A stretch of DNA of 64,000 nucleotides from Armillaria gallica (Eukaryota > Basidiomycota > Agaricomycetes > Agaricales > Physalacriaceae): contig JBANDB010000005.1 of NCBI GenBank assembly GCA_037576215.1, positions 4,278,001-4,342,000 on the forward strand. The letters are read 5' to 3'. Below, one piece after another: positions 9,834 to 60,487 of this stretch (the stretch's first letter is position 1; each line of letters starts with the position of its first letter). The notes below the pieces were generated by a model. That model saw nothing but the letters and a program-made list of their open reading frames with translations, did no database searches and was not told the DNA's origin. Position numbers and translations under genes: made by a program.

Positions 9834-9841
9834 AACAAACA
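9834..9841. repeat. Left 8-bp target-site duplication AACAAACA
   Basis: AACAAACA lies exactly where similarity to unit 1 breaks off. The same octamer occurs at 60480-60487, where similarity resumes. An 8-bp duplication is the size made by hAT and KDZ-type transposases. Confidence 0.55.
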
Positions 9842-9852
9842 TTATAGCCTAT

Positions 9853-9864
9853 AGGGCTCCAACC
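9853..9864 (+). repeat. Left terminal inverted repeat AGGGCTCCAACC
   Basis: This is a perfect inverted match to 60468-60479. Unlike the right end, 11 bp of other sequence lie between it and the octamer. Confidence 0.5.
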
Positions 9865-9893
9865 GGCTCGCTACTGATGCTTGTGGATCGGTC

Positions 9894-9965
9894 AGGAAAA
9901 AAAAGAAAAAGAAAAGAAAAGAAAAAAGAAAAAAGGAAGGAGAAAGAGGAGAAAAGGAGGGGAAA
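9894..9965 (+). repeat. 72-nt uninterrupted purine tract
   Basis: A/G-only sequence of A-runs broken by G becomes G-rich at the right. Such mirror-like homopurine DNA can form triplexes. It lies about 40 bp inside the left end of the inserted block. Confidence 0.85.
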
Positions 9966-10483
9966 CTTATATGATACTTACCGATAAATCTAAGTCAATT
10001 TTAGAGTGCTTTTGGTCCTGGTTGAGCGAAGGTGAAAGGAATATCGATGAAATATTAGCAACTCGTGCCCGAGGTACAGCCACATAGCTCGGCATGTGTG
10101 CCGTTCAGTAGCGAAATGAATATTGCCAAAATTCAGTGCGTCGATATAAATCTAGATCTTTTAATCCCAGCTTCCCAATGACATATACTCCTGGAAAATA
10201 ATGTTCTTTGGCCTTCTATATGACAGTGAACTATAGGATATTTTCCTCATTATATACAATCGCTACTGACCGGAGTTTGAAAGCAACCCGAAAGACCGGC
10301 AACTGTGTGCGGTCCGCATCTCATCATCGTTTGCCACGTCGCGCTGACTCGCTTTTATCTCTGAGGCTCTCTTCACTGCCGATTGCTGGGAAATATCGCG
10401 AAAATTATATGTAGAAGAAATAACATGAAGTGATTGGTACCCTGCTCTTCCCACTTGCCCCCGACTACTCTCTCTGAGCTCTC
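9966..10483. other. No gene seen
   Basis: This is AT-rich DNA without a protein-like frame, lying downstream of the minus-strand exonuclease gene. Confidence 0.4.
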
Positions 10484-11533
10484 TCAGACTTTCTTCCTTG
10501 TTGAGCACTTTTGCTTTGGATTTCGACTGTTCCTGCCAACACAGTCAATTCTACCACAGTCACGGCAGCTGAATGTGCAGTTCTTGACTCCGGTATTTCC
10601 TCTGCAGCCTTCACCTCTTCCACATTTCTGACATGTTCGGCGAGATCGTTTTCTGTGAGGTCCTTCAAGCCCGTCTGGCTGTGTATTTGCCATTCTGCCT
10701 CCCTGCAAATCCGGGGCTCTACGTTTCCGTGTGACCGTCATTTGATGAGGTTGATTGACTGGCGTCTGCGATGATGGTTGGATACTGGGATACTGTATGC
10801 AGGGTACGCTCATATCTGTCATTTGAAGCTGTGGATTGAGCCCTGATGAAGGAATTGGCTGTGATATGGAGGGCCGTTGTGGGACCGATGGTGCATTATG
10901 CAGTCGAGCATCAACATTCCGTATTAGTCTATCAATAGGCCTCCGGTTGTTGTATGTTGCAATCATCGTATGCTTTGCGTTCATCGCTGACTTCCACGTT
11001 GAATAGTATGTTTTAAGGTGCTCGATAAGCTGTTGTGCGTGCATGTAAGCATTGTTAACCATTTCATAGTGGTCTATGTCACGTACTTTGTAAAATATAG
11101 TCTCTCCGTCTGCGTGATTGTTCCATATCTTTACTGAATCTAACCATACAGGGTCTGATTCTGGTGCGGCGGTAAACGATGGTTCATTTAGCATGCAGTC
11201 TGAGAAGAACTGCTTTTCTTCTACTGTATGGACGGTGAGCACTGCGAAACGCGTGTCTTGCTTCCGTGCCAGATACTCAAATTTCTTAGGAGGGCTGGCT
11301 TTGTTGAAGGTGGTAATAGTGCTCGAGGCCTGAACATTAGCTGGAATAGGAAGGATGCCGAAGGCTTCTGTAGTCGGTGTGTAGAGGTCACCATTGACCC
11401 ATCCTGCGACAGGACGTGAAGCTGGAACATAGGTGCGGATGGTCTCTGAATTCAGAAGCACCTGCCGCTTGTTCGTAAGCCACACATCAAAGTGTCCCTT
11501 GTATTTCTGTCCAGTCGAATTATATGTTCCAAC

Positions 11534-13658
11534 CTATGGATGAATGACAATCAGAAAAGACCATACGTAGTATAGATGAGCCTGAGTTACGGTAATATTG
11601 TGATGGTACACAAATGCAGTCAGGCGGTTGCTTGTATGATGAGGCGATACTCCGCTGGTAGGAAGGCTATGCCTGATGGGGCGATGCACGCCCCCTTCTG
11701 CGTAATTAGTACCACGAAAACATCGGTAATGTGGAAGCCCGTTAGATTCTACTCCCAGGCATAGATACAAGGGAACACCTGGTGGGTCTGAAATGTAGCC
11801 AGAGCGAATTAGGACAAGGATATTCTTTGCAGTCTTCCAGGTACTCGCGTTGAATAATGGAAGTCCTGTCTGTGCATCTTTTAGAGGCCCATACGTCTTG
11901 AACAGTTTTGCAACGAGATCATAGAGAACCTCGGGAGGCGGAACAACAAACTTGCAGTGCTTCTTGATAAAACCAGGGTCCTTTCGAAGACACTCCTTCC
12001 AAGTCATCGGCGGTGAAAGTTGAGCCAAGAATGACACCATCAGCTTTTTATCATGACGATCAGGTAGGAATATCGCATCACGAAGGATTCGGGCAAATGT
12101 AATCCGTAGCCCATGAGACTTGGGGATCCATATCATCTGGAAGACGTGGAATATGTCTTTAAGCACGCCACTTCGACGATCATTTGGCCATGGGATTTTC
12201 TTCAACTCCTCAAGTATCTCCTCGCACTTTCGAACACTCTCTGGATCCAGATCACCCTCTGCACTGCCATCCTCTTTTTCAGATGCAAGAATATCGCAAA
12301 AGTCAATGATAAGTCGTTCAAATGATCGACCCCCCTGTTCTGGCCCGGACCCAATGTCTGTATCAACATCTATCTCTCCCTCGGAAGCAAATGATTGGTC
12401 AAATTCACCGTTAGAAACTTCTGTATTCGAGAATGCTAGATCATTTGAAGATTCAGCTATTGGTCTTGACTGTTCAGAGGTCCCGTGAATTGAACACTCC
12501 TCCATAAGTGTATCCAGACCACCAAAGCTAGGAATATAAGTCTTGAGCTGTGAACGTAGGGCAACGACTGTGAAAGGACATGTCCCGAATTTGGATAGGG
12601 CTTGTTTCCGATGTGTAGATATTATAGCCCCAGGCACAAAGACTTTTGTGACTTCGACCAGAATTCGTGTAGCCGTAACATTAATTCCTTCAAAGCTTTG
12701 ATAGTCAGAGTGGGGAGAGATATGGTCCTGGGCAATGATGTTGGCATCATCCTGGTATAGAAAGATATCACGTCCAGGAGTAAAGGAGATAAGGGCCCCT
12801 GGAATCTGCATTTTCTCCAGCTCTTCATACACCTGAAGTGACACCCAGGCATCAAGTGCAGCGTAACGTAGCTGTTCAGCAGAGAGTTCTTCTGAATCCC
12901 AATCTGGGCTAACTCGAGTTGCCGGATCCTTATCCAGATGAACCTTCAAAACCTTGGCACATAAATCGGCCAACCCAACACGGGCATTTTTAATGATCCC
13001 TTTTTGTTTCGCAAGATGTGCAACATCAACACCTCCTGGAAATGGCTTGGCAACTTGAACACCGCTCTCTTCCTGCAGGTTCTGAAGGTCAAGTTTAATG
13101 TTGCGTCCAACTTTCAGGATACGTGGATTCTTGAGAAATGTGATTAATTGTGGAGGGAAATGTCCAGCACGGATGTGTTCGCTGAGCTTTAGGAGTACAT
13201 CAGACACTCCTCGAGACACCATAGGTAATGCAAAATCCTACCTGGAAAATCCAGACTTTGTTACCATATGCTAATTGAACAATCACAGTCTGACGGCGAT
13301 CGTTATGACCAAGGCGCCGAGCATCAAGATCCACACTCCATTCTGAATCTAAACCTACAACAAGCACACTGTCCTCCTCATCAGGCATCAAATCTATAAG
13401 TGAGAGGATAGTCAATTCAATCTGTGTCATTGATTTCTGTATGTGAACCTGAATGTGAGAAGGAAGTTCGAGGGTTTCTAAATTGCCGTGCTCAGTGATA
13501 GGCCTAACGCCATCCTGCAAACTTGGGAATGCAGTTTCGAGAAAGTTTTTATCTGCCATGGTGTCGGTATAAATGATACGTGGTTGAGATAGGCCATATG
13601 TCTCGAGCGAGCAAGGGGGAGGCATGGCTAAAATCCAGCACATAGGGTAGGGGTCCAA
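11534..13658 (-). CDS. 3'-5' exonuclease domain (DEDDy, RNase D/WRN-like) exons
   Basis: This is the best-preserved part of the larger gene. Motif I is DSE in VGLDSEWSVD. A short intron around 13.22-13.24 kb follows FQ. Motif II has the conserved Asn-x3-Asp in GRNIKLDLQ, and motif III has Tyr-x3-Asp in YAALDAW. All four acidic metal ligands are present, so the nuclease fold would be competent if expressed. About 330 further residues continue to HHNITVTQ, where an intron leads to VGTYNSTGQKYKGHFDVWL and the cysteine-rich end (11520-10484). Proteins of this type hydrolyse DNA or RNA from the 3' end; the substrate here is unknown. The domain call is confident. Whether this stands as its own gene is not. 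Confidence 0.75.
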
Positions 13659-13659
13659 G

Positions 13660-14213
13660 CCTTAAACGTGAAAGTGACATGCACTTTGCATGTCCTATTT
13701 TAGGCTATATAGCACTGTAGGACTTGCCTAGTGGTTCAAATTATCATTATTTCAATGCCTTCATATGAATACAGTTCATTTCATGTCGAAAAACTCTACT
13801 TGGATGTGTTCCTCGCCAAAGTGTGGTGGGGTAGCCAACCGGCAACTCTTGGCAACTGACCGGCACATACCGGCATCTTTCCGGTAACTAAGATTAGATT
13901 ACTAAGCTGCCCTAATATGTACATATTACTACCGTATATGGCAGGTGAGGGGGGGAGGGGGGGTCTAGCTCATCCTTAAACACGAAAATGTATGCCATGT
14001 GTGTTTTTTGAAGCCCGCCTCCCCCTTGCGAGCGAGTGCTGCATTCATGTGAGTGCAATGGTGAATTGTGAGTGTGCCTTTGTTGGTACGAGATCACAGA
14101 CTCTAATTTGACCAAATTCATTGGTCATGGTCAATAAGCCGCTGAAAACTGTTTGGCCTGCTATCTTGGCAATATGTTTGCAGATCTAATGTAAATGATT
14201 GAGCTCAAGTGTA
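13660..14213. other. Gap inside the exonuclease gene, possibly an insertion
   Basis: About 550 bp separate two parts that should be continuous protein. The stretch holds a G-rich run (near 13946-13963), a cluster of CCGGCA/ACCGGC motifs at 13838-13888 and no useful frame. It may be a small inserted element or decayed coding sequence. Confidence 0.4.
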
Positions 14214-15891
14214 TTATAACATTAGAAGTGCATGAACCTTGAAACTATGATCAATGGCCATGACCTCACTACTGAGCAGTGCAGTATGCTGATGGTATTC
14301 GTGTTCATGAGCTTCAATGAAGTTGTCGTAGATGTCACGGCACCATTGCGCTGAAGGTACAATGGTATTGAGACCTCGGTCACTTTTCTTGTCAAACACT
14401 GGAAAGGGCTCGAATATTTGACTGAAGACTGCCGATGCCTTGGCACGAGTCTGAATGGTCTGCAGGTATTGAACCTCTAGCATCTCGTAACGACGGCGGT
14501 GCATTACGTGCAGACTATCTGAAAACTGCTTTGCCTCCATACCATTTTGAAAGCAGCAGTGCATCATAGTGAATACACTGTCGGACATTCCACTGCGGTG
14601 AGTGAGATGTGCAGGAAATTGGGTAGCAAGTGCCTCAGGTAGTCGAGCGAGGACACGTGAATCCCAGCTCTGATATGTCGCTGAACAGCAATTACATTTA
14701 TACCTTATGCCCATTAACCAATACACATCTTCTAGGTCAACAATGCGATGTGGATGGTGCCAGTAACCATGACGTGTGAGCCACCTGATGCACTGTGACT
14801 GTGGACATGAAAGCTGGTCAACAAGAGCAAGTGGATCCCAGTAAAAGAAGCGAGATTGTACAACAGCAATGGCAAGATGTCAGGCTGTTGCAGAAGGAAA
14901 AGTGTCAACATGAGGAAGCCAGAAAGACTTTAATTGGTTATATATAGTGACCTTTGCCACTGCCCCATGGCCAACAACAGAGGCCTTGACAATCTCAAGA
15001 TTGGTTTTGAAGGTGTCCATCAGCCAACTTGGCGGGGGTCATATGCCAGAAGGGAGATCACGGTCTTCATTGTCCTCAGGTGCAGCATGACCTTCACCAT
15101 CGTCGCCAGTGTCTTCTTCATCCTCATCCAGCAAATCATTGTCTAAAGGACGGACAGGGTCATATTCGGGGAAGATCTGTTCAATGTCAATGTCTATAAT
15201 AAGTTCTGTGAACTTGCGGGAGTCTATAGTGCAATACAATGTACCTTCAACAGTAGAATTTGGCATGGAAAGAGGATGAGATATCTGAGACATTAATTGG
15301 GCACATCGCAGAGCCTCTTTTCCAAATATAGAGGCCAGTGGTCGATCAGTATGGCTAGCGGCTATTGTCTAGTTAAGAGGCATCAGATCAATAGGGTAGT
15401 GTATTTTTAATAACAAAACTTACTATTGAGGATGATAATACTACTGCATCACTGCACTGCCAAGAATTTAGGTCCACGTCTGTTGGAACATTGGAACAAT
15501 TGACAATTTTTCGAGGTCGGCCTTGCTTGCACTTTAATGGCGGTTCCGTAGCTACTTGCTGCTGCTTACAAGGATGTCCACGTTTATGTTTAGGTTGTAC
15601 CACTTGCGCTGAGGTTTGAGGCTCCTTCCGGGGTCGACCACGCCCATGCTTTGGGGCAGTTACTGGGTTACTATGGGATGTCACAGCGGTTTTCAGAGGA
15701 TTCGTAGTCACCAGAGTGACCCCATTGTCATTAGAACGTTCTGAATTCACAACGCGAGCTGGCTCGCAATCGTTAGCTTGATTTATAGCAGGTGTAATTG
15801 GAATGACAGGCAACATGTTAGTCTGGATCGATATTAGCTTCATTGAGCACAAAAAAATGAATGTACCTGCTACTGTAGATCTACTTGACAT

Positions 15892-16435
15892 ATTTCAACT
15901 GTAGAACCCACTCATGAAAGCCCCAAAAGTCCTGGTGAATGATAAACCAAGGTTGGTACAGGAGAAGACAGCAAAAACATACCTCAAGTGGCTATCTTAA
16001 CTGAAGGTGCAGGTTTCCTTGCTGTTGAACACAAAACAGAGATATTTACATGATATTACACTTTTTTTATATGTTGGAAGGCATGGATACTGAGGAATCG
16101 TGCTGTGAGAGCTGTGCGGCGACGTCGACAATTGACGGAACACATGGGAACATGTTACCCAGTTTGGTAATTACATAAGCATTTTAAACTCAGTTTAAAG
16201 TCCGGTCAGTAGCAACTGCTATTGATAGCGACCCACGAGCACGAGTAGCTAGCCCTCCAACCATGAAAACAGTTTGTAAACTAGCTGTAAACAGTTTATA
16301 AATGGTATTGAACATGTGACTTGCAATACTCTATCACTTATATCTATCCTGAACCTCGCAATGGAACCTCTATGGTACAATTTGGATGAAAGAAACGATA
16401 TGCAGATTGCTTGCCGGCATGCTGGATCGAAGCAG
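15892..16435. other. No gene; contains a second TIR-like end
   Basis: There is no coding frame. At 16251-16263 AGCCCTCCAACCA, followed by AAACAGTTT-rich DNA, resembles the right end of the 50.6-kb block read inward (AGGGCTCCAACCA, then ACTGTTTTTAAAC). It may be the end of a related element. Confidence 0.4.
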
Positions 16436-16440
16436 AAGTT
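16436..16440. repeat. Target-site duplication AAGTT (left)
   Basis: AAGTT directly borders the left LTR and is repeated at 21331-21335 after the right LTR. Five bases is the usual size for Ty1/copia integration. Confidence 0.9.
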
Positions 16441-16740
16441 TATTGTGAGGATGAGTGAAATATGCAGTGGTAAACCTACTTCTCGGTCTACTACCTTAGT
16501 AGTTGGTATGATATGAAGGAAATTAATTACTACTACTGGGCCAAAACATCGGCCTTATATACTACACAATGTATCTAGAAGGTTCTACTACTTTACCTAT
16601 GTTTATATACGCTCGAAAGTTCCAGTAAGTAAAAGTACGAAGAGGAGGAAGAGCAATGATGCTCAAACATTCTGGATGTTACCGGATTGCCAAGATGTGG
16701 CATACCCGATATGGTACTGCCAGCTTGTCGGATCACAACA
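16441..16740 (-). repeat. 3' LTR of the copia element
   Basis: This is 300 bp that reads TGTTGTGATCCG at its start and CCTCACAATA at its end on the element strand. It matches 21031-21330 at 295 of 300 positions. Confidence 0.96.
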
Positions 16741-16752
16741 CTCCCCCTCAAG
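16741..16752 (-). promoter_or_regulatory. Polypurine tract (plus-strand primer)
   Basis: On the element strand TTGAGGGGGAG directly abuts the 3' LTR. It overlaps the pol stop codon TGA at 16748-16750. Confidence 0.85.
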
Positions 16753-19700
16753 ACGGTAACAGCCCAAGTTCCTGTACAAACTTGTCGTGCTTCTGGCAGG
16801 GCAGTGCCTTCGTCATGACATCTGCAACCATTTCATCTGTGGGGCAATAGAATAGCTCTATTATATCATCTTCAATTTTTTCCCGGACAAAATGATTTTG
16901 TACGTCAAAATGTTTCGATCTTGCGTGGTACTGCGGGTCGCATGCGATGGCAATGGCTGATTGATTGTCCTCAAAAATCAAGGTAGGATCTTCTTGTGAA
17001 CATCCTAGCTCAGCCAACAAGTTCCTATTCCATATGGCTTGCCTAGTTGCATGTGCAAGAGCTGTATACTCTGCTTCTGTTGAAGACAGTGCAACAGTAC
17101 TTTGTTTTTTCAAGCTCCATGCAAATGATGCGCCTCCGATAAGGTATGCGTACCCTGAGACTGATTTCAAATCATCTTGATTTGATGCATAGCTTGCATC
17201 AGAGTATCCCGCACTGATTACTTCAGTCTCCTCATTTCTGCGGAACACAAGTTTTAGATTTTGGGTTCCAGCAAGGTACCTGAGGACGCGCTTCAGTGCT
17301 GTCCAATGCTCTGGTCCTGGGTTCAACGCATATTGTCCTAGCTCCTGGACTGGATGCGCTAAATCGGGTCGCGTTCCTTGTGCTGCATATAGCAATGATC
17401 CTATCACTGCCTGATACCCGGACACAATCGCAGGGTCGACAGGCAATTTATCAGATCGCCTTCTCAAGATCACATTTGGATCAAGAGGTGTTGTTACGGG
17501 GTGCGCGTTCTGCATATTGAATCGTGATAGGAGTCCATCGATGTACCGTGTTTGAGAGAGTGCAACGGTTCCGTTTTCCCGGTCCCTCTCTATTTCGATT
17601 CCAATGATCTTTTTCGGCTCTCCTAGGTCCTTGACATTAAACAACTTCTGCAGCTCCCCCTTAACTTCTGCCATATCTCCTACGGTTTCCATGAATATGA
17701 GTAAGTCATCTACCCATACTGTGATGACTGTCATTCTTCCATCTCTTATGTGATTGTATACACAGTGATCAACTTCGAGCCTTGAGAATCCGATGTCCAT
17801 CATATTTCTATTGAACTCTCGGTTCCACTCACGTCCTGACTGCTTCAAGCTGTAAAGAGTTTTATGTAGCTGGCAAACTCTGCCTGATCCATCATCATAG
17901 CCTTGTGGTTGCCGCATGAAAATCTCTTCTTCGAGTTCCCCATTTAGGTAAGCTCCTTTTACATCCATCTGAGAGATTTCGAGGTTTTTGATGGTGGCAA
18001 TGCCTAGGGCTGCGCGAACAGATTCTAGTCGGACTACTGGTGCGAAGGTTTCATAGAAATCTACTCCTGGTATTTGGGAATAGCCTTGCACAACGAGCCG
18101 TGCCTTGTAACGGGAGACATTTCCATTTTCATCATATTTCTTGCTGAAGACCCATTTGCTCCCAATAGCTTCTCTTTCTTTTGGCAGGTCCTCTAAGGTG
18201 TATGTCCCCATTTCCTGGATGGTATGTATCTCCTCATCCATGGCCCTTTTCCATTCCAACCATTCTGCTTCAGCTTCAGCTTCTTTAAGGCTTTGGGGGA
18301 AATCATTTGGGCTGACAGGCATCTTGTCACCTACGAGATAACTCCGTATGGATGCAAGGTTTGTGAAGTCTTCTTCATTCGGCTGCTCCATGACAGTTAT
18401 TGATGATGTACTAGCTTGCCTCAGCACTGATGGAAGACGAGAATCAGGATTATTCATCTTTCGGTAATTATGATCCTTGATAGTGCGCTCAGATCTGCGG
18501 GGATATGATTGAGAGGATGAGGATATCGTTTGGGGAATTCTTGAAGGTATCGGCACTGTTGGTACTGTGAGTGAGGGCTTTCCAGTTTCTGGTTTATCTT
18601 TATTGGCTGACTTCTCATCACCATCAGGCAATTGAGGGTCGCTATTTCCTGTCTCCCCCTCGAGCCCCATATTGTCAGTCTTCTCGATGTCCACAGCTTT
18701 TGACGGTTCCACAAATATGAAATTCCTTGAGACTCGGATTTGCCTAAGTCTCAGATCATAATATTTTATGGCCTTCGGACCATCAAGATACCCAACAAAG
18801 ATGAATTTCTTTGACTTTGGCTCGAGTTTTGACAGGTTCTGCCCTTCCGTCAAGATCCACACATCACAGCCAAACTCCTTGAGGTGCGAGACATTTGGTT
18901 TTGTCTTTGTCCATGCTTCCTCAGGTGTTTTCCCTTCTAGGGCTCGCGTCGGCACCATGTTTCGTATATAGGCTGCATATTCGATCGCGGTTTCCCACAG
19001 GAATGATGGCAGGCCACGCACTATTAACATGGCTCACGTGAGTTCAATCAAGATGTGATTAAATCACTCTGCTACACCATTTGAAGAGTGTGCATAGGGT
19101 GCAGTGGTTTGCAACTCGATTCCCTTCTCCTTCAACCAGTCCTTGACTTCTTTGCTGATTAGCTCCTTTGCATTGTCAACTCGGATGACTTTCGGCTTGA
19201 CTCCGAACTGTCACTCTATGAAGGTGATGTATTCTTTGATCTTATCAAAAGCTTGACTTTTCACCTTCATAAATTTAGGTACACAACGTCGGGTCGTGTC
19301 ATCCGTAAAAGCAATGTTATACTTCGATCCCTGCAAGGAAGCAACATGGGCTGGTCCCCAGATATCACTGTGAGTAAGTTCGCCCGGAATTTCTCTTTGA
19401 TGCTTCGCTTCTTGTGGGTATGGGTTGTGCGTCTGCTTTGCTTGTATACAGGCCTCGCATTGAGTGAATGGAGGAGAGTCTTCATCAATGGTAAGTCCTT
19501 CTACAAGTCCATCCTTTGCCAAACACTGAAGTCCTGTAATACTCAAGTGCCCAAGTCTTCGATGCCATGAATCCCATGTATTCTGGCTGTCCTCAGCGAC
19601 ATTTGACTGTTCAGCAGTTATTCTGGCATGTGCTGCCATTTGATATAGCCGCCGGGATTTATGTCCGACTGCAAGAACTGTACTGCCATTTCAGAGAAAC

Positions 19701-20932: not shown

Positions 20933-21012
20933 GATGTGATGTAGTTTGGGGGTTTGATTGTTGTATTAGGCGAGTACTGCTCGTGTAGGTATGTAGATGA
21001 ATAGATTATTTA

Positions 21013-21030
21013 GGCTCGGGGCCTATAACC
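21013..21030 (-). promoter_or_regulatory. Primer-binding site, half-tRNA type
   Basis: On the element strand GGTTATAGGCCCC follows the 5' LTR directly. From memory, Drosophila copia uses GGTTATGGGCCCAG, which pairs with the anticodon arm of initiator tRNA-Met. The site here differs in the first 12 bases by one G-to-A change. Confidence 0.65.
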
Positions 21031-48479: not shown

Positions 48480-49398
48480 TTGTGACACCGTATGTTTGTT
48501 TTTTGTTATCATCTGTTACATACTAGTGTAATACAAAAGTTTGATTTGGACATTCCCTTGTATTTGAAGCGTGGAAGAAACAGTGGCCGAAGACGTTCGA
48601 GGAACGATAGGAGCATCTAAGGGTGACATCTCCTTGGGGGTGGCGTAGTGAGGCGACGCGAGATAAGAGTGGGGCTCCCGAAGGAGCGAAATAGATGTGG
48701 ACGCTATGTGCGGATCGGGATGAGTGGGATCTCATCTTAACTGGTCTAATGCGATGTTTGGACGCGATTTGGGGTTTGCTTTCTCCCGGTATGTTTTCTG
48801 GTTTTGAAATGGGATGGGCGGGTGCTAATGAAAAGATGTTACTGTTTGATCATTTAGGCTATTACAAATATGGATTGCCGATGGATCGTGACCCGATGAA
48901 AGGAATACCGGGACATGTGACCACGCATTCGTACCCTTTGTAAATGAATGGTTTTGGGATACACAAACACGTGGAACAGGGAAGGTGCGCAGAAGGAAAG
49001 ACGCGCGGACTGACTCGTAGAGAGGGAGACGCTGCAGCAGAGGAGACGCCGCAGCGAAGGGACGCTGCAGGTGGGGGCGGAGGTGACAGAGCGTGGAAGA
49101 TCCATCATCCAGCTCGGTTGCCACATTACATTGGTGCCAGTTCACATTTGGTCCTACATCTCGATACCAGCACTTACGGAAGGGAAAGAAGGGATGCAGG
49201 CCAAAGCAATTTGAAACCCAATCGCAGAGTATTGCATCGTCAAATATGGCGTGACTGTCGACAGGACGCGTACGGTTCGTTACCCGGGGGTCAGCAGCAT
49301 CTGAAGAGAAGTGCCGTGGGATTACACGAACAGGGAGGGAGGGAAAGAGCGGGGCATTCCATTCCCAGTGTTTCTGATAAATATGCAACCTCGACGAA
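48480..49398. other. No gene seen
   Basis: Frames on both strands (48.83-49.50 kb) overlap each other without motifs. A GACGC(T/C)GCAG word repeats at 49028-49070. Confidence 0.35.
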
Positions 49399-50778: not shown

Positions 50779-51169
50779 GGGCAGAGGTGACGCGACATGA
50801 GGAAGGTCAATGGATGGATGGGGCTCAAAATGAAAAGACTCTAGACTCTGGGCTCAAAAGGTCACGATCCGTCTGGAAGGAGCACGCAAAATAAGGAAAT
50901 ATTGCAGTGGAGAGGTACAGGTACTATCTATTGACTACAAATCGGCTGGGATTGGGGTACCACGGGCAGCTAGGATGGATGACATGATGGAAAGACCATG
51001 TATCCAATGGAGCGTTTGATATTCCATCCGGGAATCTGTATCTGGAGTGACCGCTTCGAGGCGCACGCAAAAGTTATGAAATTCCTGCTGCGAAAAAGGA
51101 TTGTTGGGGGGATCACAGGGAACGTAAGCAAGACTACGTGGGACTAGAAGATGTCATTATGATTACGGC
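50779..51169. other. No gene seen
   Basis: This is plain intergenic sequence between two minus-strand genes. Confidence 0.3.
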
Positions 51170-52802
51170 TCAAAGACTGTGGGACAACGTACCACTTTCA
51201 GGTGCATGGATGCGGATACGTTGTCTAGCGCGTAACTGACTAAGCATCTCATCGTTCAGACCCATGTTTGGCACAGCTGCGAGGGGGGCAGCGACACGAG
51301 GATCATCAGGCGTGAGATGCTCAAGACCGCAGGCTCCATGCAAGAGCTGACTCTCCATCCAGATTTGGAGCGGAGAGGCGCTGCGTCCACGCAGGGATAA
51401 CTTGTGATTATTCCAATGATTGGCCCATTTTTGACAGTCGCCATCAATCTTGCCAAGGAACAAAAAGTGCAAGAGCCAGATGTGTCGATTGAGGAGCGGA
51501 TTCAGCGAGTGCGAGCGTTCCAAAGCATAGAAGAAACCCTTCCACTTGTTCGAAAACGCGACGGTAGTGTCCCGCCACATTCGTTTGACTCTGGTGTTGT
51601 GCACAGATCTGTTGAAGGGATGTTAATGGTACATTTTCAAATAGGCTGTGCAAACGACCTTCCCCATATATACGAATTGCAAATGACGCCTCGATAATTT
51701 TCCATCCACTGGGCTACAAACAGGTTTTCCAATCCACAATCACCCCGACAGCGGCTTGGTGTACCCCAGTGGAGGAGAGAATCAAGAAAGAGACGGAGAA
51801 CACTCATGGGCTGGTTATTGTTATGTGCGCGAATGCCTGTTGCCGCCCGGCTGCAACCATCAACAAAGAGATGAAGAACGATCTTCCAACGGATCAGGTC
51901 TGCGTGCGGGAGAGAGGGTTATTAGACGTGATTCGAGAGCAAACAGACAGGCAATCTCACTGTGGTTGCCATCGTGGTGCCAAACTGAGTTTGCGCCAGG
52001 AACTCGGTAGCTGTTACGTGCCACAGTTCTTTGACGGAAGGGTGGGGGTGGTCCTTGTACCCTGAGACGAGACGCGTCAACTTGTTCCCTCGAAACACGC
52101 AGCCCTTCGCTGACGAGAGCACCGAAAATCATGCCCCGGCCGTAGTCGGGGAAATCTCGGAGAACTTCAGAAGTGACTTCGTCCAGTTCAGCATCCGTCA
52201 ACGGTGTCATGGTCGGACGCGTCGGGCAGTGATGCCAGTGAGCACGACCATCCTCATCGACGTATTCAATCTGGAAGGGTGCATGGCCCGGTCGAACGAG
52301 TCCCCATCGTAGTTGATACCGACGAATGGTTCGGGGATGAAACCCAAGGAGCGTGGCGATCTTTGCAGCACCACCATAAACCTGGGTGAGGTCGCGAAGA
52401 AGGTGATAATCGATAGCGGCTGCCGGGCGTCCCCCAAGTCCCAGTCCATGGTGATGAAACTGTCCAGGAATCAGGGTGGGAGGTCGGGAAGGCGGGTCGG
52501 ATGATACTAATGCCGCCTCGCGGAGGAAATGTTTCATGTTGGAGAGAGATTTATCGACATTGACGGCAGAGTGGTGGTCGAGGAGTCCTCGATGCTATGT
52601 GCCACGCGTCAAGCCAGTACATCAAAGGAGGAGATGAGCTTACAAAGCGAGATGTGTTTTCAAAGTGGGCAACGTCATTGGACTGCAAATGAATGCAGTG
52701 GGGGTCTCCACGTCCAGCTTGAAGGACCTGATTGACTGATTGAGTCAGTCGGCCATAGGTGGAGCGGAGTCGCTCGACGATCACTGAGGGATCGACCGGC
52801 AT
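51170..52802 (-). CDS. Integrase-core (DDE) domain protein of the basidiomycete type
   Basis: The ATG at 52802 opens MPVDPSVIVERLRSTYGRLT. A helix-turn-helix-like part follows (VYGGAAKIATLLGFHPRTIR). The core begins SYRVPGANSVWHHDGNH. A 61-bp intron (51960-51900) joins in phase to LIRWKIVLHLFVDGCSRAAT, then IRAHNNNQPMSVLRLFLDSL and SRCRGDCGLENLFVAQWMEN. A second intron after SYIWGR leads to SVHNTRVKRMWRDTTVAFSN. Two catalytic aspartates are visible (FVDG, RGDCGLEN). In related proteins, as I remember them, the third position reads NTRIERLW with Glu; here it is Lys (NTRVKRMW). The gene is open throughout but may be catalytically dead. Confidence 0.75.
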
Positions 52803-53169
52803 GAGTATGAGAACGGGATGAGGGATAGAGAAAGAAAGGAAGGACTCTTTCTGTCAGCAGTATAACAGGTGCCTCTTGAAATAGGACGTGTCAGTTCGCG
52901 ATGATCTGGACCTCGACGGATGGGGATCTCCGATGTTCCACGTGCGTCTGATAAGTCAGTGGTGAATATGATTAATTATTATGTTTTTTTCACTAGGTTA
53001 CCCCTCCTTAACGACAACAAGGTAGTACCGTCTGTGTTCCTGCGCTGCCAAGGGGTATGCCAAAGGACAGTCAGAAGAGGAGATCCACGCATGTTCCTTT
53101 GTAGATTGTTCTACCATGAGCAAGCAGCGTAGGTCTCCCGATTCTTATCATACCTTTCAACGTTTAGAA

Positions 53170-53630
53170 CAACGATGCGATGGTATTCTTCAAGGCACAC
53201 GACTATCTATCCCTAAGGGATTAGATTTTATGGTGAAAGTTCTCAACACACCCGAGGGAAAATAGAGAATCCGGAAAGTCCGCAAACCAAGCTCGCTGAA
53301 GAGGGTAAGCAACCGTAAACGATGTTCTTAAAATATCGATCCTCAGTCAATGTAGAATTGCAAACGACTTCAGCGGCACTGGTGCTTGCCTGGGTGGCAC
53401 GAAAGTCCAATACATCCACGGTAATTTTAGGAGCTTCGCTCCCTGACCAGGTGTTGGAGATCTTGAAGGTGCTCGAAGTCCTGCCCAGACTTACAGAGGA
53501 TATCATGAGCAAGATCGATGTCAGTCTCGATGATAGCCTGTGCTGGTGGGTATTGAATAGAACACTTTATGGTGATGCCGTGCTAACTTGCGGATTGATA
53601 GCCTGTGTACAGACGTCCGCCAGTGGATAA
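53170..53630 (+). pseudogene. Aldo/keto reductase relic (voltage-channel beta-subunit type)
   Basis: The C-terminal third of an aldo/keto reductase is readable. VFFKAH lies near 53.19 kb; LNTPEGK, TAG at 53263-53265, and RIRKVRK follow. An intron at 53305-53346 joins LQTTSAALVLAWVARKSNTS and VILGASLPDQVLEILKVLEV, ending LPRLTEDIMSKIDVSLD. The family motif with TVILGAS near the cofactor pocket is kept. The TIM-barrel N-terminus with the catalytic Tyr is absent, so this is a fragment. Confidence 0.7.
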
Positions 53631-53639
53631 GTTTGGGAG

Positions 53640-55772
53640 GTAGTGATTTCCCACGTGAAAGCATTGTAGCGTGAAGGACCAGGGTTTCAGAGGTTCTATG
53701 AATCTGACCTTTCAGAGTCGCTTTACACATTTCACTGACGCATGTATGACGGACGCAATAGAAGTCCGGGCCGCACGGCATGGTGACTTGACTGACGTCC
53801 GTGCCCGAAATTTCTCCTGAGAGATATTGGCTTTATTTTTTTGTTCTTCAATGACGGTCGAAAGCCTTCTTCAAGCCCACGTGGCTCTTGTGGAACAACT
53901 TGGCTGGCCTGCGGCTTGGCTGGGATGGCTTGATACTGATAAGCAGAACTAGGCGAGGTTCTTCAGTTGATCCATGCGACATCTAGGGTCAACAAAGATC
54001 AATCAAACGTGGGTCTTTTTGTTTACTTTAGCAGCGCGCACTTCTGTTTGACTCCATTCTTTTTTAGTTTCACCGTTCATCGGTATTCGCCTACAAATTT
54101 ATCAGTTTTTAATGAATGTTCAGTGGTATGTCTAGGCTTGCAGGCGCTCGTAAGCATCATGTTGAACGTCTCCTGATACTTTGGGAATGGCGTCCACTTA
54201 TTGTTTCGTCGCCTTGGTGCATGCAACAAGGGATTCGGGGGAGGGGCGATATATAACATGGCATTTCGACCACTGCGACGTGAATAGAGGCGCCATGAAG
54301 CTCTGGGTGTGCTCCCTTCATGATGCCATCAGCTCCAGGCTCTCACTTTGGTCGTCACACTCTTTGTAAGATTGTCAGACATAGGGTCTTTCTACTCCCA
54401 GCTGACTATTTGCTAGGTCTTCGTACGCAGCTTGCGGTGGTTCCTTAGAGCTAGTCACCGCTGTAGGATTGTTTTAGTTCGAGCTAATTCTCGTTTCTCT
54501 ACTATCAGGATCCATCACTCAGGTAAACTGAAGCAATGGGCAAGGGCTTTATCAAGGATTTCTAGCGCAGGAAAGGTCCCCAACGAGGGCAGGTATGTGC
54601 CTTTGCTCCCTACTCGCTGTCCGCTAAGTCAATCGGCCCTTACTCTAGGATTTTAGTACTTATCATTGTCCACCATCGCGCCATGACAAGAATTGATATC
54701 GGACGTGCCGTCACCTCGTTGATACGAACGTTGAGCGAGCTTGGTGCGCTGGATAACGGGAGTCACCCGGGTTGGAATGACGTGTAACAGTGACCACGAC
54801 GACGAGGAGGACGGTCAGTGGCTACGGTGAGCTCATCCTATTCCCCTCAACCATATCTTATGGTTCTCATTCTTTTTTCTTTCAGGTTTTTTGAAGCTTA
54901 CACGGGCGTCGAGTATCGTGCTAGGTTATGCTCGAGTATGGTGGCCCAAAGGCAGTAAGTAAATGAATCCTTGACTGTTACCATTGACAAATAACTCACG
55001 ACTCACGAGTCTTCCTCTGAATCTTAGGTCCGGTACCAAAGACCTGCCGTTGAGGACACCTGGGACCGCTGTTGGGTATCAGGCTTCACGTCGTCGTCGG
55101 GGTATTTTTAGGCTGCAAAAACGGTCGTACAGCTGAGGTACGTGTCAGCCTCGAACATGGTGATCCAAAGTTAGTAAACGAATCCTTTCATTAATTGACA
55201 GTTCACTAACGAGTTCCTACTCTAGATCTAATACCAGTACTAAGTCCCGCCGTGATGACTAGTGACTACGTCCCACGCTGTCCATCCATACTAACCTCGG
55301 AATGAACTAAATGAGGCGTTGGTGGGGCTATCTGCAACGAAAACAGTTGTACATTCGGGGTGAGTGTTGACCACGGTAGTTCTGTTTGCTTTTACTGACT
55401 TAGCTCATTTAGAGGTGTAGGCTTCGGTGTGTGCTCATGTACTAGGTACGTATTGTCTCCTCCAACCTCGACTTTCATGCTGACCGGTTACTCGAGTTGC
55501 AGAAATGAAATATATGTGCTTCGTCCACTTGTTGAAGGTAAGCTTCCATGCTCACTGCTATTGCGGGAAAGCTAACAATGTCAATAGATATATGTACACT
55601 TTCTTTTATTGAATAGAGGTATCCCCCATACAGAGGACGCACCCAGTAACTCCTTTTCTCCATGGAAAGTAATCTCTGTTTAGCTCCAATGATTTTCAAT
55701 GTGTCCACAATGCGCCCAATGAGGTGAATGAGCCTTTGCGTAAGTGTTACTCATTCTAGATATCATTGACCT
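53640..55772. other. Non-coding; degenerate repeat of intron-like pieces
   Basis: No gene was found. At 54.94-55.04 kb and again near 55.16-55.25 kb the pattern ATGGTG(G/A)(C/T)CCAAAG...AGTAAATGAATCC...TTACC/TTGACA...CTCACGA(G)T recurs. The pieces look like a decayed, locally duplicated, intron-bearing gene. Confidence 0.35.
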
Positions 55773-55920
55773 GGCTAACTTGGCTCCAGGCTGTATATGT
55801 TCCATGTACTGGGGCCACGTGTTTGTCCTCTCGTTCAGTTGAATCTAGCTAACATGGCTCAAGGCTGTGTATGTTCCCTGCACTAGGACCGCATGCTTAC
55901 CTCTCATTCAGTCCAATGGT
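55773..55920. repeat. Two tandem copies of a 74-bp unit
   Basis: GGCTAACTTGGCTCCAGGCT (from 55773) recurs as AGCTAACATGGCTCAAGGCT (from 55847). Similarity runs through TGTTCC...CACGTG/GCATGC...CTCATTCAGT to the end of each unit. Confidence 0.8.
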
Positions 55921-57155
55921 AAGCTTTGGTGTTCGCTACTGGTAATGTGAAGCCAACGTAGTTGACAGATACGGGTGGTAATGATTTGCATGCAGGGCAA
56001 GTACTCGTTCTTTCATGAGTAGAGGTGTTGCCGCGTCTGGCGCATCTCAGTTGTCACTTTGTGCAGAGGATGGACTCGTAAGCTATTTCTTCTGTTAACT
56101 TGTCAACGACAACTGAAAGTGAATTCCGGCAAGATGGTCTCACCGCAATAGTGTGGCTGAAGTCGATTTGAGTTATGGAACCCCATGCTGACGAAACATT
56201 GAGCAAATTCACACTGAAGGTCTCACTCGAGGTAAGTCGTCTCTAGTGATTCTGAAGGGCCGACTGACAATTCACTCGTAGGTGACATCGGTAGAGATGG
56301 ACAAGGGTATATTAAGATCATCAGGAAAAACGGAACGAACCAGAGTGACCTCCTTTTCGACCGCGAAACTCCTGACTCCTTCATGTGGACAGACAGCTGC
56401 ATTGATGCCAAAGCGTGCGGCAGCTTTGTTATTGTCACCTCACCGTCATCGAACACAAGTTGAAGATGCGAATCGATGTGTAGTGCAGGCTCTAGGTCCA
56501 TGGTCAGTAATGTTGAAAGTAGCAGACACTAAGTTACCCTTAAGACTCTGAAGCAGCGCAATAATATCAATAGCTGGCACGGCAGGCTTTCCCGTCTTTG
56601 CGAGGTCGAGGCAGCTTGAAGGGTGTACCACGAAAGGTGTCTGTCACCGCCCACATATCACGAGAGTCTTGTGCACTGTTGATACCATCCTAGACTCCGA
56701 GAAGCCCTTGATAGGTCGTCCTGGTTTCGTTACCAGCATCACCTGGGTTGAAAGCGGTAAGGACTTGAGCTTTCATAACATAAAACTTAAACGCTGATGA
56801 TTCGAGAATCGCCAGACAGCCGAAATGTCAAACGTCATGTATACACCCAGCGAGGAGGAGAGGATCACTTCTGTTGTTAGATGTTGGATGTCACTCGACG
56901 TGGTTAGGGACCCAGCGGGGTTGAGCTTGCTTACGGGGTATGTATAGATGTGTTCCTACTCGTACACGACTTTTTACTGACAGTCAAAACAAGGTGGACA
57001 AAGGTAGTAAGTTCAAGAAATACATGTCAAAGGCTGATAAAGAAAAATGTGGATGGTCCATACGTAGGATCGATATGAATAATTGGCCAATATAGTACAA
57101 GGTAAAGACAACGGATATGATACAGTTTAATGTGATTCAAGACGGCTGGTATGGA
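55921..57155. other. No gene seen
   Basis: Frames at 56.22-56.63 kb on either strand have no motif. Base composition is ordinary. Confidence 0.3.
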
Positions 57156-57267
57156 TCATGATCTGGTGGGTTGGACGTGAATACAGAATCTAGTGACCAC
57201 GGTCAGACCATGACAGGAGCAAGTGTGGCTCATCCTTACCTGCTCATGTGTTGCGGGCGCCCTGGAG

Positions 57268-57828
57268 CTATTTCTTGCACCTGCGGAAGAAGCAACGGAC
57301 ACGACCGCCTGGAGCTTGTCCGCGAGTAGAGGCGACGTGGTTGGTATTGGACGACGCGTCCAATGGATAACCAACGCCAAGGCCTACATTGCCGCGATGT
57401 TTGTGAGGATTGTCTATGGGTTGATCGACCCATCGGACAGTCCGAGAGGAACGCGGAGGCGCGTTTGGATCAACAGCAGTGTATGGGGGAGGGAGGGATT
57501 GCCGGTTGCGCGATAAATCGCGAGGCTCAGCGTAGGTGTGATGACCAGGATGCAAGAATTTACCGCAGTGAACAAGATGCCTCTTGGTCTGAACGGTGAG
57601 CACAGGTGTCTGGAAGGATGGATGAAGGACGTCGCGTTGGCGTTGCAGAGACCCTTCAAGAGTGTTCGATTCACGGACAGAAGGGATTGGTGGAAGTGCT
57701 TTGTCGCACCCAACACTAGGAGAGTCAGAATTGGTTTTCACGTTGAAGTGGGGTAGCGCCGGATGAGGAACAGCGTCGGACCGGACATCGGCGGTGTTAG
57801 CAGGGTAGGTATGAGTGGAGGGCAGCAT
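57268..57828 (-). CDS. Hypothetical proline-rich protein
   Basis: A 186-codon frame opens MLPSTHTYPANTADVRSDAV. It contains ALPPIPSV and a PPPY motif (QSLPPPYTAVDPNAPP, a WW-domain type ligand). It ends in a basic Cys pair (VRCFFRRCKK). No family is recognised. Overlapping frames on the plus strand are also open, so coding status is doubtful. Confidence 0.25.
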   Translation of the reverse strand: MLPSTHTYPANTADVRSDAVPHPALPHFNVKTNSDSPSVGCDKALPPIPSVRESNTLEGSLQRQRDVLHPSFQTPVLTVQTKRHLVHCGKFLHPGHHTYAEPRDLSRNRQSLPPPYTAVDPNAPPRSSRTVRWVDQPIDNPHKHRGNVGLGVGYPLDASSNTNHVASTRGQAPGGRVRCFFRRCKK

Positions 57829-57904
57829 AGTCGACGAATTGAGATTGAGGTGGTCTAGGCAGACGCTGTGAAGGGGAGTTTGAGGGCCGCCCCCGATGCC
57901 CGAT

Positions 57905-58150
57905 GCTTCTCTTTAGAGGCATGCCCGACGGCTGAAACGGCGGGGACTGTCCGGCACACCATTCCATTTCTCATGCCGATACTGTTCTGATAGATGCCTA
58001 CTCGACGGCTGAAACGGCTCGGCACACCTTTCCATGGTTTCATGCCGAATCGCTTCATGCCGAATCGTTTCATGCCGAATCGTTTCATGCCGATGCTTGC
58101 CTGATTGATGCCGATGCTTGCCTGACTGATGCCGACCCGATATATGCCAA
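57905..58150. repeat. Nested tandem repeats built on CATGCCGA
   Basis: A larger unit (GACGGCTGAAACGGC...GGCACACC...TTCCAT...CATGCCGA) occurs twice, near 57928 and 58011. Three 15-bp units CATGCCGAATCG(C/T)TT (58041-58085) follow, then 21-bp units ATGCCGATGCTTGCCTGA(T/C)TG (58087-58128). On the minus strand the 15-bp units read as RHETI repeats, probably by chance. Confidence 0.85.
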
Positions 58151-58240
58151 TGCTTCTGTGATAGAAGTCTGGTACTTCTGTGAAGGGTATGGATCATCTA
58201 TTCTTGGCGATGCTTTGCCAAATCAAATACTTCCTGGACT

Positions 58241-59185
58241 ATGGCGATCCTCCCTCCTCTGCATACTTTCGAGGTAATCTCAAATTTAACATTCGGAATG
58301 GGGATGGGCGGCTCTGAGGGAGGGATGGGAACATACCTACGATGCTCGGGTCCTTATTTGCGTGCAATATTGGGAGCTGTCAGTCTGCTATTCAACGGCC
58401 ACGGCGAAGCGTTTCTATCCAAAGATTTCTGTAATCAGTTTAATGAACATTTGGACGTCAAGAACTCTCACCCTCTCACGGAGCTAAGTATGTTGCCTCT
58501 ACATCGTCCTTATTATTTTCTAAAGCATGTGTCAAAGTCTGGTCCAATATCCGCGATACTATCATCAAGATGGTTGAAGAGGTGATCAAAGACTTAGCAG
58601 ACAAGCGCATAGCACCCTTCCTGGATGGCCCCGACCCTTTTCGTATCACCAAAGTGCCGTCTATCGTTGACTTTCTAGCTGTCCCTCGTTACGACACTCT
58701 CATCGAATCTCCCGTCTTGACGACTCTCGCTGAGGAGGGAGTCGAAGTCGCTCGTTGACGTGTTTTGCAAGGAATGGAGGGGACCAAACACGATCCCCAG
58801 ACCATGAAATTGGAACGGAGGCGCGTGCAGGCTGTCGAGACAGGAAACTTTCATGTTGATGTTTATACGAGCAGTCGGTTTGAACCCGGAAACTGCGACG
58901 GTGGACGATACATTGAGTGGTGCTCTTTTGTGAGTATCTTGGTTCTTCATCCTCAGTGTGGAGCTAACCATCCCACCGTCAGATCGGACATATAGACGGA
59001 CATATCTCAGGAAGAATCAACGTCGTTTCCTACCCAGAAGACTTTGAGATTATGCCTTTGGAAAACAAGGAGGACGATCCTGCCTCGAGAAACACCCAGA
59101 CCCTCATGCTTAGGGTTCCCGACTGTCTTATTGCTTTGCTTTGTTCTCAAATCATGTGTTTTGTTATTTATCGAAACGGGTCCTG
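58241..59185 (+). CDS. Hypothetical multi-exon gene
   Basis: The ATG at 58241 opens MAILPPLHTFEVISNLTFGM. Protein-like text continues in neighbouring frames: LLFNGHGEAFLSKDFCNQF, DTIIKMVEEVIKDLADKRIA, PFRITKVPSIVDFLAVPRYD, then VETGNFHVDVYTSSRFEPGN and GHIDGHISGRINVVSYPEDF. Exon joins were not resolved. I recognise no domain. Confidence 0.35.
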
Positions 59186-60415
59186 AATGAACGCGTGTAA
59201 CATCCAGTATGTCTTAATAATATGGGCCGGAAAACAGCTTCAGGTGGCCAGGGTGGTCGCTAAACGCCTCAGACGAGTGAAAAATAGCTTCGAGTTCCTC
59301 GCAGGCCATCGAAAGCTTGATTCAAGACCCTGATAGATATTACATGAGAGCGATGATAAAGAATAGAACCTTTCCATGCCTATTAAACACGATGAAATAA
59401 AGCAGAAGACAGAATACGCACCATTGACCCTATCTTGCGTGCCTTCCAATTCTGCACTCTCCGCCGCCTCCCCAAAACCATACTGCACTTTCCTCGCCGT
59501 CGTTGATCGTACCGAACACGTCCTACCAGCCGGATGGCAATGTATCGTCCTGGCAAGAGACGATGTGTCGTTGATTTTGCAAACGAACCTTCGGGATGGC
59601 TGACACGAGAGTGGGTGAAGGAGCTGCTAGAACTCACACAGATCGACTCAAAGATAACTGATTTTCGTTGGTAAGGGCTTGCAACGGCAGTAAGAGAAAA
59701 CGCAAGGACGGGAGGATAGATCATGGAAACGGGAAGAGAAAGCTAAAGAAAGATCGGAGGGTATTTTGATGGCAAACGGCCCATTGACCGGTGTGACATT
59801 GTGTGACGGTCGCGTGAAAATGCATGTGGTTGCGTGTGGTTCGTCGGGGGTGGCTAGCGTGTAGTACAGTGTGGACGCGTGTAGAGTTGACAGGATTGTC
59901 ACGGTGTTGACACGGCTCTACACGATCGCGTAATCGCTAAGGCAGGACGTCTCCGTGTGGCGCACCCGGGTTTGCACGGGATTTCATCGGTGTACACGGC
60001 TGTACACGGCTCCACACGGATGTACATCCGTTTAAACCGGTTTACATCGGTGTACACCGGTGCACACCGATGTACACCTGGTAAAGTCCAGTAATTCCAG
60101 TTGTAGTTTTTCTCCCAGCAAGAACGAAATCATGCTGAGATCATTCGGATCTCGAGGCTGTGTAGATGAACAGAGCGCTGAGGATCCTGATGGCAACCGC
60201 AACCATTGAGATAGCGAGTGGAGCGCAGTATATGTTTCCTGGGAATGCGTCGCTGTAGTACAGTGTAGATCGAGAGCAGGTGTTGCTGTTGAAAACAGAT
60301 GTCATTCTTAAAAATAAGGGTCCAGGTCAAAAAATCCACCGTAAAAGAACGAATCCTCGTAAACTCGGACTCGTAATTTACTGTTTGTTTATTGTTTGCC
60401 TCGAGACTTAAACTT
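59186..60415. repeat. Non-coding end region with GTGTACACC minisatellite, locus 3
   Basis: At 59950-60080 imperfect units (GGTGTACACGGC, TGTACACGGCTCC, GATGTACATCCG, GGTGTACACCGG, GATGTACACCTGG) form an array. A looser zone of GTGTAG/GTGTGG words precedes it from 59805. The flank CCAGTAATTCC at 60089 matches, inverted, the flank GGAAATACTGGACT of the array at 24.65 kb. Minus-strand frames near 60.13-60.34 kb have one hydrophobic stretch (LAISMVAVAIRILSALFIY) but no known family. Confidence 0.65.
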
Positions 60416-60433
60416 AAATGGTTTAAACCATTT
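60416..60433. repeat. Perfect 18-bp palindrome
   Basis: AAATGGTTTAAACCATTT is exactly self-complementary. It lies 46 bp inside the right end of the 50.6-kb block and could be a subterminal transposase site. Confidence 0.9.
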
Positions 60434-60467
60434 ATTTTTACGTTTAAAAACAGTTTTTTAACTAAAT

Positions 60468-60479
60468 GGTTGGAGCCCT
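60468..60479 (-). repeat. Right terminal inverted repeat GGTTGGAGCCCT
   Basis: This is the inverse of 9853-9864. It directly abuts the octamer AACAAACA. Confidence 0.55.
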
Positions 60480-60487
60480 AACAAACA
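60480..60487. repeat. Right 8-bp target-site duplication AACAAACA
   Basis: It is identical to 9834-9841. Directly after it the H4 5' flank of unit 2 continues. Confidence 0.55.

Follow-up and report, generated by a model that had tools for sequence, protein, structure and literature searches.

Starships carry tens of kilobases of cargo that moves as a unit between short direct repeats. They are described from Pezizomycotina. IS3EU transposons have TA..TA termini and usually 6-bp duplications, and Polinton/Maverick elements have a 6-bp duplication (PMC10045372). Fungal IS3EU members bear passenger genes, e.g. TET/JBP and alpha-kinase (PMC10045372, PMC12730594).

The 50.6-kb block in the window (the whole stretch of 64,000 nucleotides of Armillaria gallica DNA that was analysed) is very probably explained by a hAT MITE beside a histone H4 unit. 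Nested insertions would have opened it, the largest holding a 35.5-kb IS3EU-type DNA transposon with accessory genes (the giant). In the proposed order, a MITE of about 0.5 kb first inserted next to a single histone H4 unit; no fewer than three nested insertions then split it. The giant's ends (TA..TA, inverted repeats built around TACTGGACT, TGTACAC sites in subterminal position) would be bound by its own rva_4 DDE integrase. This enzyme would join them to a new target, giving 6-bp duplications. The giant carries several accessory genes. The giant and its integrase are as follows.

24637..60105, plus strand: giant transposon, 35,469 bp, TACACC...GTTGTA, with 6-bp duplication GTTTTA/GTTTTT (5/6)
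24637..24948, plus strand: giant left end, inverted repeat (21/26 to the right end), TACTGGACT core, TGTACAC cluster
59792..60105, plus strand: giant right end, inverted repeat and subterminal TGTACAC sites
50935..52802, minus strand: five-exon integrase gene, rva_4 / PF24764, 552 aa, hand-made model

With its TA..TA termini, imperfect inverted repeats, 6-bp duplications and five-exon rva_4 DDE integrase, the giant appears to fit the IS3EU superfamily (IS3EU/GingerRoot). The rva_4 domain is presumably a mark of IS3EU. However, the giant differs from known IS3EU elements in its length of 35.5 kb and in its accessory set. Its termini read TACACC..GTTGTA, compared with TAYGG..CCRTA in the TET-bearing rust IS3EU families. 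Nothing matching TET/JBP or alpha-kinase came up in the six-frame Pfam scan of the giant. In the literature searched, we found no giant IS3EU element.

The giant resembles Starships in carrying tens of kilobases of cargo as one unit between short direct repeats. Unlike them, it has a DDE integrase where they have a tyrosine recombinase captain, and its host is a basidiomycete. Six-frame Pfam scanning of 25001-60102, which allowed E values up to 0.1, gave no match to such a captain (DUF3435). Likewise, the giant is large and has an integrase and a 6-bp duplication, as Polinton/Maverick elements do, but its inverted repeats are short. The same scans gave no match to protein-primed DNA polymerase B, packaging ATPase or capsid. 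They ran from 25001 to 60102 with a gap of some 100 bases at 55.0-55.1 kb, and domains split by introns could escape them. The giant was therefore not read as a Helitron, a Maverick or a Starship, because of the inverted repeats, the 6-bp duplications, the rva_4 integrase and the lack of matching domains in the scans.

The window integrase carries the motifs HHDG and RGDCGLEN. Lysine occupies the position where the catalytic glutamate is expected; the second full-length copy, on C4, retains glutamate there. Among its relatives, 25 of 36 show an SVHN motif, and the glutamate is present in all 25. A sequence search of solved structures gave no match to the integrase. The earlier note proposed a giant transposon that was possibly non-autonomous. 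This may be apt for the window copy of the giant, whose integrase is without the expected catalytic glutamate. We infer that the integrase acts on the giant's ends, and an intact copy could supply it. The integrase is linked to the ends by position only. Movement would be by cut-and-paste.

The ends of the giant recur in the genome. Allowing up to 3 mismatches, the left-end pattern gave 12 matches and the right-end pattern 15 (9 exact), against 0 in either control. A looser core pattern gave 27 matches against 1. Five of the left ends and two of the exact right ends have no partner, and none turned up in the flanks of two orphan right ends. The giant DNA transposon with cargo that the earlier note proposed is present, but its borders are the inner ones (24637-60105) and not those reported. 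It differs from the outer element in its ends, its 6-bp duplication and its own integrase. The note was also right that small transposons alone explain the gene content poorly.

A second full-length copy of the giant lies at C4:6666845-6702324. It measures 35,480 bp, has other flanks and its own perfect 6-bp duplication, GGAAAG. The two copies were compared at sampled points and are colinear at each of them. Four internal samples match in 574 of 584 letters (about 98% identity), with offsets of 11-12 bp. Two accessory frames are alike at 98% and 99% of residues, with no stops. The cargo has most likely moved as one unit, because the C4 copy is colinear and about 98% identical at all sampled points. 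An assembly error, named earlier as a possible refutation, is unlikely for the giant given this second full-length copy with other flanks. The genome DNA searches scored 38 of 311 and 38 of 113 candidates, and the C4 copy and the window are absent from the matches listed, despite the exact C4 ends.

The TA..TA termini of the giant in the window are also present in the paired copies. Six independent paired insertions were found: three have perfect 6-bp duplications, two (the window and C2) match in 5/6 letters, and one (C7/C15) has none. The shorter paired copies are 27.1, 17.8, 8.3 and 4.7 kb long, and no integrase was detected in these four.

The cargo of the giant comprises the following segments.

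28815..30005, minus strand: accessory gene A, 397-aa frame intact, F-box likeness seen by eye only
36168..37163, plus strand: accessory gene B exon, 331 aa, with 61 genome loci after merging, window locus included
38591..38686, minus strand: RING-like zinc finger, below the Pfam cut-off
44129..45572, minus strand: segment 79% to C4:3071999 (L062), where a RING-H2-like match is encoded that likewise falls short of the cut-off
53157..54472, plus strand: aldo/keto reductase-like segment, 82% to C20:343529 (L061), where the match passes the cut-off that it misses here
57096..58048, minus strand: accessory segment, 85% to three other loci

Accessory gene A had no Pfam match, and its F-box identity is tentative. 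An SRA_like match in the giant was below the cut-off and taken as chance. For two accessory genes, all the organism-named database relatives are from Armillaria. Each of the three other loci resembling 57096-58048 has an rva_4 integrase no more than about 12 kb away. Gene A lies within 40 kb of an integrase at 5/7 other loci (0.17 expected under uniform placement) and gene B at 19/59 loci (1.43 expected), counted as family copies and not as independent events. The accessory genes may serve the giant.

This recurrence near integrases bears on the rival that survives best, in which a short IS3EU element grew to 35 kb by later insertions or captures, without a stable gene set. The shorter paired copies (4.7-27.1 kb) favour such growth, as does the likeness of many internal segments to other loci. 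We consider it unlikely, given the recurring accessory genes and the finding of the 35-kb form itself twice, with different flanks.

Far less probably, the inner 35.5 kb would be a plain piece of chromosome that was copied through recombination between scattered element ends and not by transposition. Some of its segments are host-like, and segmental duplication does occur in this genome, because the flanks of the C7 and C15 copies are identical. Nevertheless, the flanks of the two full-length copies differ, and in both the 6-bp duplications lie exactly at the TA..TA ends (5/6 and 6/6). Moreover, on C9 a related copy of the surrounding repeat, a relative of the target, runs contiguous without the giant.

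The preferred reading, an IS3EU-type giant, leads to a wider proposition that we regard as evenly balanced. Armillaria genomes would hold a giant, still mobile IS3EU lineage with a conserved accessory set, a DDE-based basidiomycete counterpart of Starships that mobilises integrase-less relatives of many sizes. If the reading of the giant holds, mushrooms possess a vehicle of their own with which whole sets of genes move. The vehicle role of the giant is directly testable, because a single genome contains both filled sites and related empty ones.

The giant sits inside a reported 50.6-kb block, whose borders and remaining parts are listed below.

9834..9841, no strand: left octamer AACAAACA, where unit 1 similarity ends
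9835-9842, no strand: hAT MITE left 8-bp target duplication, read as ACAAACAT, 7/8 match to the right copy
9852..9864, plus strand: hAT MITE left terminal inverted repeat TAGGGCTCCAACC
9865..16254, minus strand: DUF6729 and 3'-5' exonuclease transposon (PF20499 2.2e-21, PF01612 9.6e-16)
16255..16440, plus strand: hAT MITE body, part 1, 92-94% to L011, in two pieces
16441..21330, minus strand: Copia LTR retrotransposon (RVT_2 3.1e-68)
21331..21492, plus strand: hAT MITE body, part 2, about 90% to L011
21493..60375, no strand: repeat of uncertain class, lodged in the MITE and broken up in turn, right end about 60376
22722..24206, no strand: 1.49-kb element, inverted ends (CATCAGCAAAACC..), TA duplication, four other full-length copies (94-96%)
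60376..60480, plus strand: hAT MITE right end, 97% to L011
60481..60488, no strand: hAT MITE outer target duplication, right copy ACAAACAA

Sequence comparison bears out the earlier description of the junctions: similarity to unit 1 ends at the left one and resumes at the right one, the octamer AACAAACA stands at both, and AGGGCTCCAACC is found as an inverted pair at 9853-9864 and 60468-60479. The outer duplication copies, ACAAACAT and ACAAACAA, are alike in 7/8 letters, and nine unexplained bases (TATAGCCTA) separate the left copy from the TAGGG end of the MITE. The bare 12-mer AGGGCTCCAACC proves nothing: the 86-Mb genome has 19 occurrences of it and 17 of its reversed control, so it is not enriched. 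The outer ends are real because the 12-mer extends into family-like sequence and pairs up. Read by eye, 12 of the 19 sites are the window's two ends or family-like beyond the 12-mer, and 7 are not. The suggested genome search for same-ended copies yielded three further pairs (C3, C4 and C5), all with perfect 8-bp duplications (AATTCAAT, GCGTACAT and TCTTACAT).

The segments 16255-16440, 21331-21492 and 60376-60480 are consecutive parts of a 548-bp MITE, L011. Ends 9852 and 60480 are those of one hAT MITE of about 0.5 kb, split by nested insertions. Of the suggested hAT or KDZ origin, hAT is supported by the 8-bp duplications and the hAT dimerisation domain (PF05699, 4.7e-13) encoded by the same-ended locus L013. 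For KDZ nothing was found: no such transposase was among the ORFs and frames given to Pfam, a scan that left 19034-25000 outside. The scanned frames of locus L016 had no hAT match in Pfam, although its proteins resemble those of L013. TcdA_TcdB and UCR_6-4kD matches in L016 were below the cut-off and taken as chance. With its TAGGG-type ends, 8-bp duplications and same-ended locus with a hAT domain, the outer element is like other hAT MITEs and otherwise ordinary; its nested load alone is unusual.

The DUF6729/exonuclease transposon has 26-bp imperfect inverted ends (21/26 matching) and lies between perfect 8-bp duplications CTCCAACC (9857-9864 and 16255-16262), within the hAT repeat. The similar end seen earlier at 16251 is real and is explained by the position of this duplication inside the hAT repeat. 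The DUF6729 gene was dropped as transposase of the TAGGG ends: same-ended loci are hAT-like, and its element has its own inverted ends and duplication. The Copia element has 300-bp terminal repeats (98.3% alike) and a 5-bp duplication, AAGTT. The 21493-60375 repeat shows a weak 5-bp duplication (ACTTA/ATTTA), and its similarity stops at 60376-60377 in 30 of 39 other places among the matches listed. It houses the TA-duplicating element and the giant.

The least probable reading, in which a single giant hAT or KDZ transposon spans all 50.6 kb (9852-60480) and moves with its cargo, has in its favour inverted ends that match and an 8-bp duplication that nearly does, but the interior rebuilds a 0.5-kb MITE broken by elements that have ends and duplications of their own, Pfam gave no hAT transposase (six-frame, most of 25001-60102; selected frames, 10484-19033), and the C4 copy of the giant is flanked otherwise, the outer ends not adjoining it. 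The tandem array extends into at least a third unit.

The 50.6-kb block beside the H4 unit is a nest of transposons. Its outer borders are ordinary; the notable part is the largest transposon within it, a giant whose features fit the IS3EU superfamily.

Members of the nest and genes of the giant (window positions)
9865-16254, transposon with DUF6729 (2.2e-21) and 3'-5' exonuclease (9.6e-16) matches, 6.39 kb
16441-21330, Copia retrotransposon, terminal repeats 98.3% alike, duplication AAGTT, reverse transcriptase match
21493-60375, repeat hosting a 1.49-kb element and the giant, weak duplication ACTTA/ATTTA
Inside 21493-60375, the 1.49-kb element, TA duplication
24637-60105, plus strand, the giant, 35,469 bp
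28815-30005, minus strand, accessory gene A
36168-37163, plus strand, exon of accessory gene B
52802-50935, minus strand, integrase gene, five exons, 552 residues, stop-free (hand-spliced model)

The left end of the giant reads TACACCAGGAAATACTGGACTAAACC from 24637; the right end, read inverted from 60105, is TACAACTGGAATTACTGGACTTTACC, and the two agree at 21 of 26 letters. On contig C9, a related copy of the repeat around the giant, 86-90% alike, runs uninterrupted through this site, with 24633 joined to 60105. The window is C5:4278001-4342000 of a genome of 86.05 Mb in 28 contigs, which we searched for both ends, allowing up to three mismatches. The left end gave 12 matches and the right end 15 (nine exact, six with three mismatches), against 0 for each control. 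Seven of the left ends pair with seven of the exact right ends; five left and two exact right ends are partnerless. The pairs on C7 and C15 share the same flanks and were counted once, giving six independent insertions. Perfect 6-bp duplications flank three of these six: GGAAAG (C4b, a second full-length copy), CTGACC (C16) and CTCAAA (C4a). Two others keep five of six letters, namely the window copy (GTTTTA/GTTTTT) and C2 (AGGATG/AAGATG), and the C7/C15 insertion has no 6-bp duplication. The copies measure 35.47 kb (window), 35.48 kb (C4b), 27.1 kb (C2), 17.8 kb (C4a), 8.3 kb (C16) and 4.7 kb (C7/C15). The giant has 21 TGTACAC sites, counting both strands, and 14 of them fall in the terminal 360 bp at one end or the other, which together make up 2% of the element. 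GTGTAC, a shorter word, clusters less there (6/20 sites).

The second copy, C4b, occupies C4:6666845-6702324 and is 35,480 bp long, compared with 35,469 bp in the window. Sampled at four internal places, it agrees with the window copy at 147/151, 148/151, 149/151 and 130/131 positions (574/584 in total), offset by 11 or 12 bp. Two protein-search frames, of 397 and 331 residues, are 98% and 99% alike, neither with stops. As far as they were read, the sequences directly flanking C4b and the window copy are unrelated. These sampled points are most simply explained by a single move of the complete 35-kb element. Two genome DNA searches listed neither C4b nor the window itself among the best 38 of 311 and 38 of 113 candidates scored.

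The integrase gene model is a prediction from the sequence, and the third intron in it begins unusually. Two of its exons match the rva_4 integrase domain. Among the 7999 best-scoring candidates we found 36 relatives, and all those with a named organism come from Agaricomycetes. Both aspartate motifs are kept in the window integrase. The third motif was seen in 25 of the 36 relatives, with glutamate in 25/25; the window copy has lysine there, whereas C4b has glutamate. Because of this lysine, the window copy is probably inactive on its own; a glutamate-bearing copy exists in C4b. The shorter paired copies contain none of the 45 rva_4 matches of the genome (all 60 candidates scored).

IS3EU elements are described as having TA..TA termini and usually 6-bp duplications (PMC10045372), and the giant resembles them in its termini, its duplication and its type of transposase. 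In rusts, IS3EU elements that bear TET end in TAYGG..CCRTA, and their TET/JBP gene sits between the transposase and alpha-kinase genes (PMC12730594). Like a Starship, the giant carries tens of kilobases, but a captain recombinase was not found in it. Six-frame Pfam scans of 25001-60102 (E up to 0.1), which left out about 100 bases at 55.0-55.1 kb and which intron-cut domains could escape, gave no tyrosine recombinase, polymerase B, TET/JBP or alpha-kinase. No giant IS3EU element was described in the titles and abstract openings surveyed, a set that lacks most subscription journals.

Gene A has four database relatives, all from Armillaria. Gene B has 13; the ten with an organism name are all from Armillaria, and three are nameless. 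One relative of each lies in A. nabsnona, on a contig reported as 1,182,169 bases both times, which suggests that the two genes may be linked there. Gene A has no Pfam match, so its F-box label rests on appearance. After merging, and with the window and C4b copies excluded, the genome holds seven gene A and 59 gene B loci. Its rva_4 matches merge into 26 loci. Within 40 kb of an rva_4 locus we found 5/7 gene A and 19/59 gene B loci (0.17 and 1.43 expected under uniform placement). Within 20 kb, there were 4/7 and 11/59 (0.08 and 0.71 expected). These proximity counts concern family copies and not independent events. Gene B, gene A and the integrase recur together at five loci (C1, C5, C10, C14 and C15), with gene order and strands unlike the window. 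The segment 57096-58048 has three relatives, each near an integrase. RING-like pieces are under the Pfam cut-off both in the window and at another locus (L062), and an aldo/keto reductase-like piece is under it in the window and over it at L061.

Regarding the outer borders, the earlier note placed the end of H4-unit similarity at 9841 and its restart at 60480. It also described one octamer that stands at each junction and, at the two inner ends, inverted copies of a 12-bp repeat. The sequence confirms every one of these features. The 12-mer by itself is unremarkable (19 genome sites, 17 for the reversed control). What gives the ends meaning is that 12 of the 19 sites either belong to the window itself (two) or run on into family-like sequence beyond the 12-mer, and that perfect 8-bp duplications flank three further end pairs. 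One relative, L011, is a complete, unbroken MITE of 548 bp with the 8-bp duplication TCTTACAT. Its successive parts correspond to window 16265-16440, 21308-21492 and 60376-60480. The terminal repeat of L011, 13 bases long, matches 9852-9864, whereas two of its stretches, about 47 bases apiece, are missing from the window. L013, which carries the same end, codes for a hAT dimerisation domain (PF05699, 4.7e-13). The reported ends are therefore those of a hAT element about 0.5 kb long. The outer duplication and the left TAGGG (hAT) end are separated by nine bases, TATAGCCTA at 9843-9851. Their TATAG-CC-TATAG arrangement resembles a possible excision footprint.

At least three insertions opened this hAT element: the DUF6729 transposon, the Copia retrotransposon and the 21493-60375 repeat. 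The DUF6729 transposon has 26-bp inverted ends (21/26 letters alike) and a perfect 8-bp duplication, CTCCAACC, located within the hAT repeat. Its insertion accounts for the divergent left end and for the "similar end at 16251" noticed earlier, which is real. At the right end of the 21493-60375 repeat, 30 of 39 other similar genome places stop at window 60376-60377 (best 40 of 73 candidates scored). DUF6729 occurs at eight places in the genome, the window's included, and the literature search found no paper naming it. The transposon also has a weak AT-hook match. A further copy of the hAT MITE (C3:6779400-6787000) is interrupted by about 5 kb of other DNA, so the family seems to have been struck by insertions more than once.

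A sister family has the right end TAGAAATGGAATTACTGGACTTTA at C1:1978887, C5:5923518, C7:1524091 and C15:1653326. An rva_4 integrase lies about 20-22 kb off at three of these four loci, and all four have gene B paralogs within 8 kb. Three loci of at least 23 kb each (C2:6613372-6636505, C7:6019694-6043433 and C15:1561666-1585399) carry an rva_4 integrase, a gene B paralog and two segments like window 57.1-58.0 kb. They perhaps represent another giant family. To the right, the H4 tandem array continues at C5:4340000-4349900 with another H4-like stretch and with a third unit, or at least part of one; the main pieces are 84-93% alike to unit 1 of the array, and shorter pieces from 76%.
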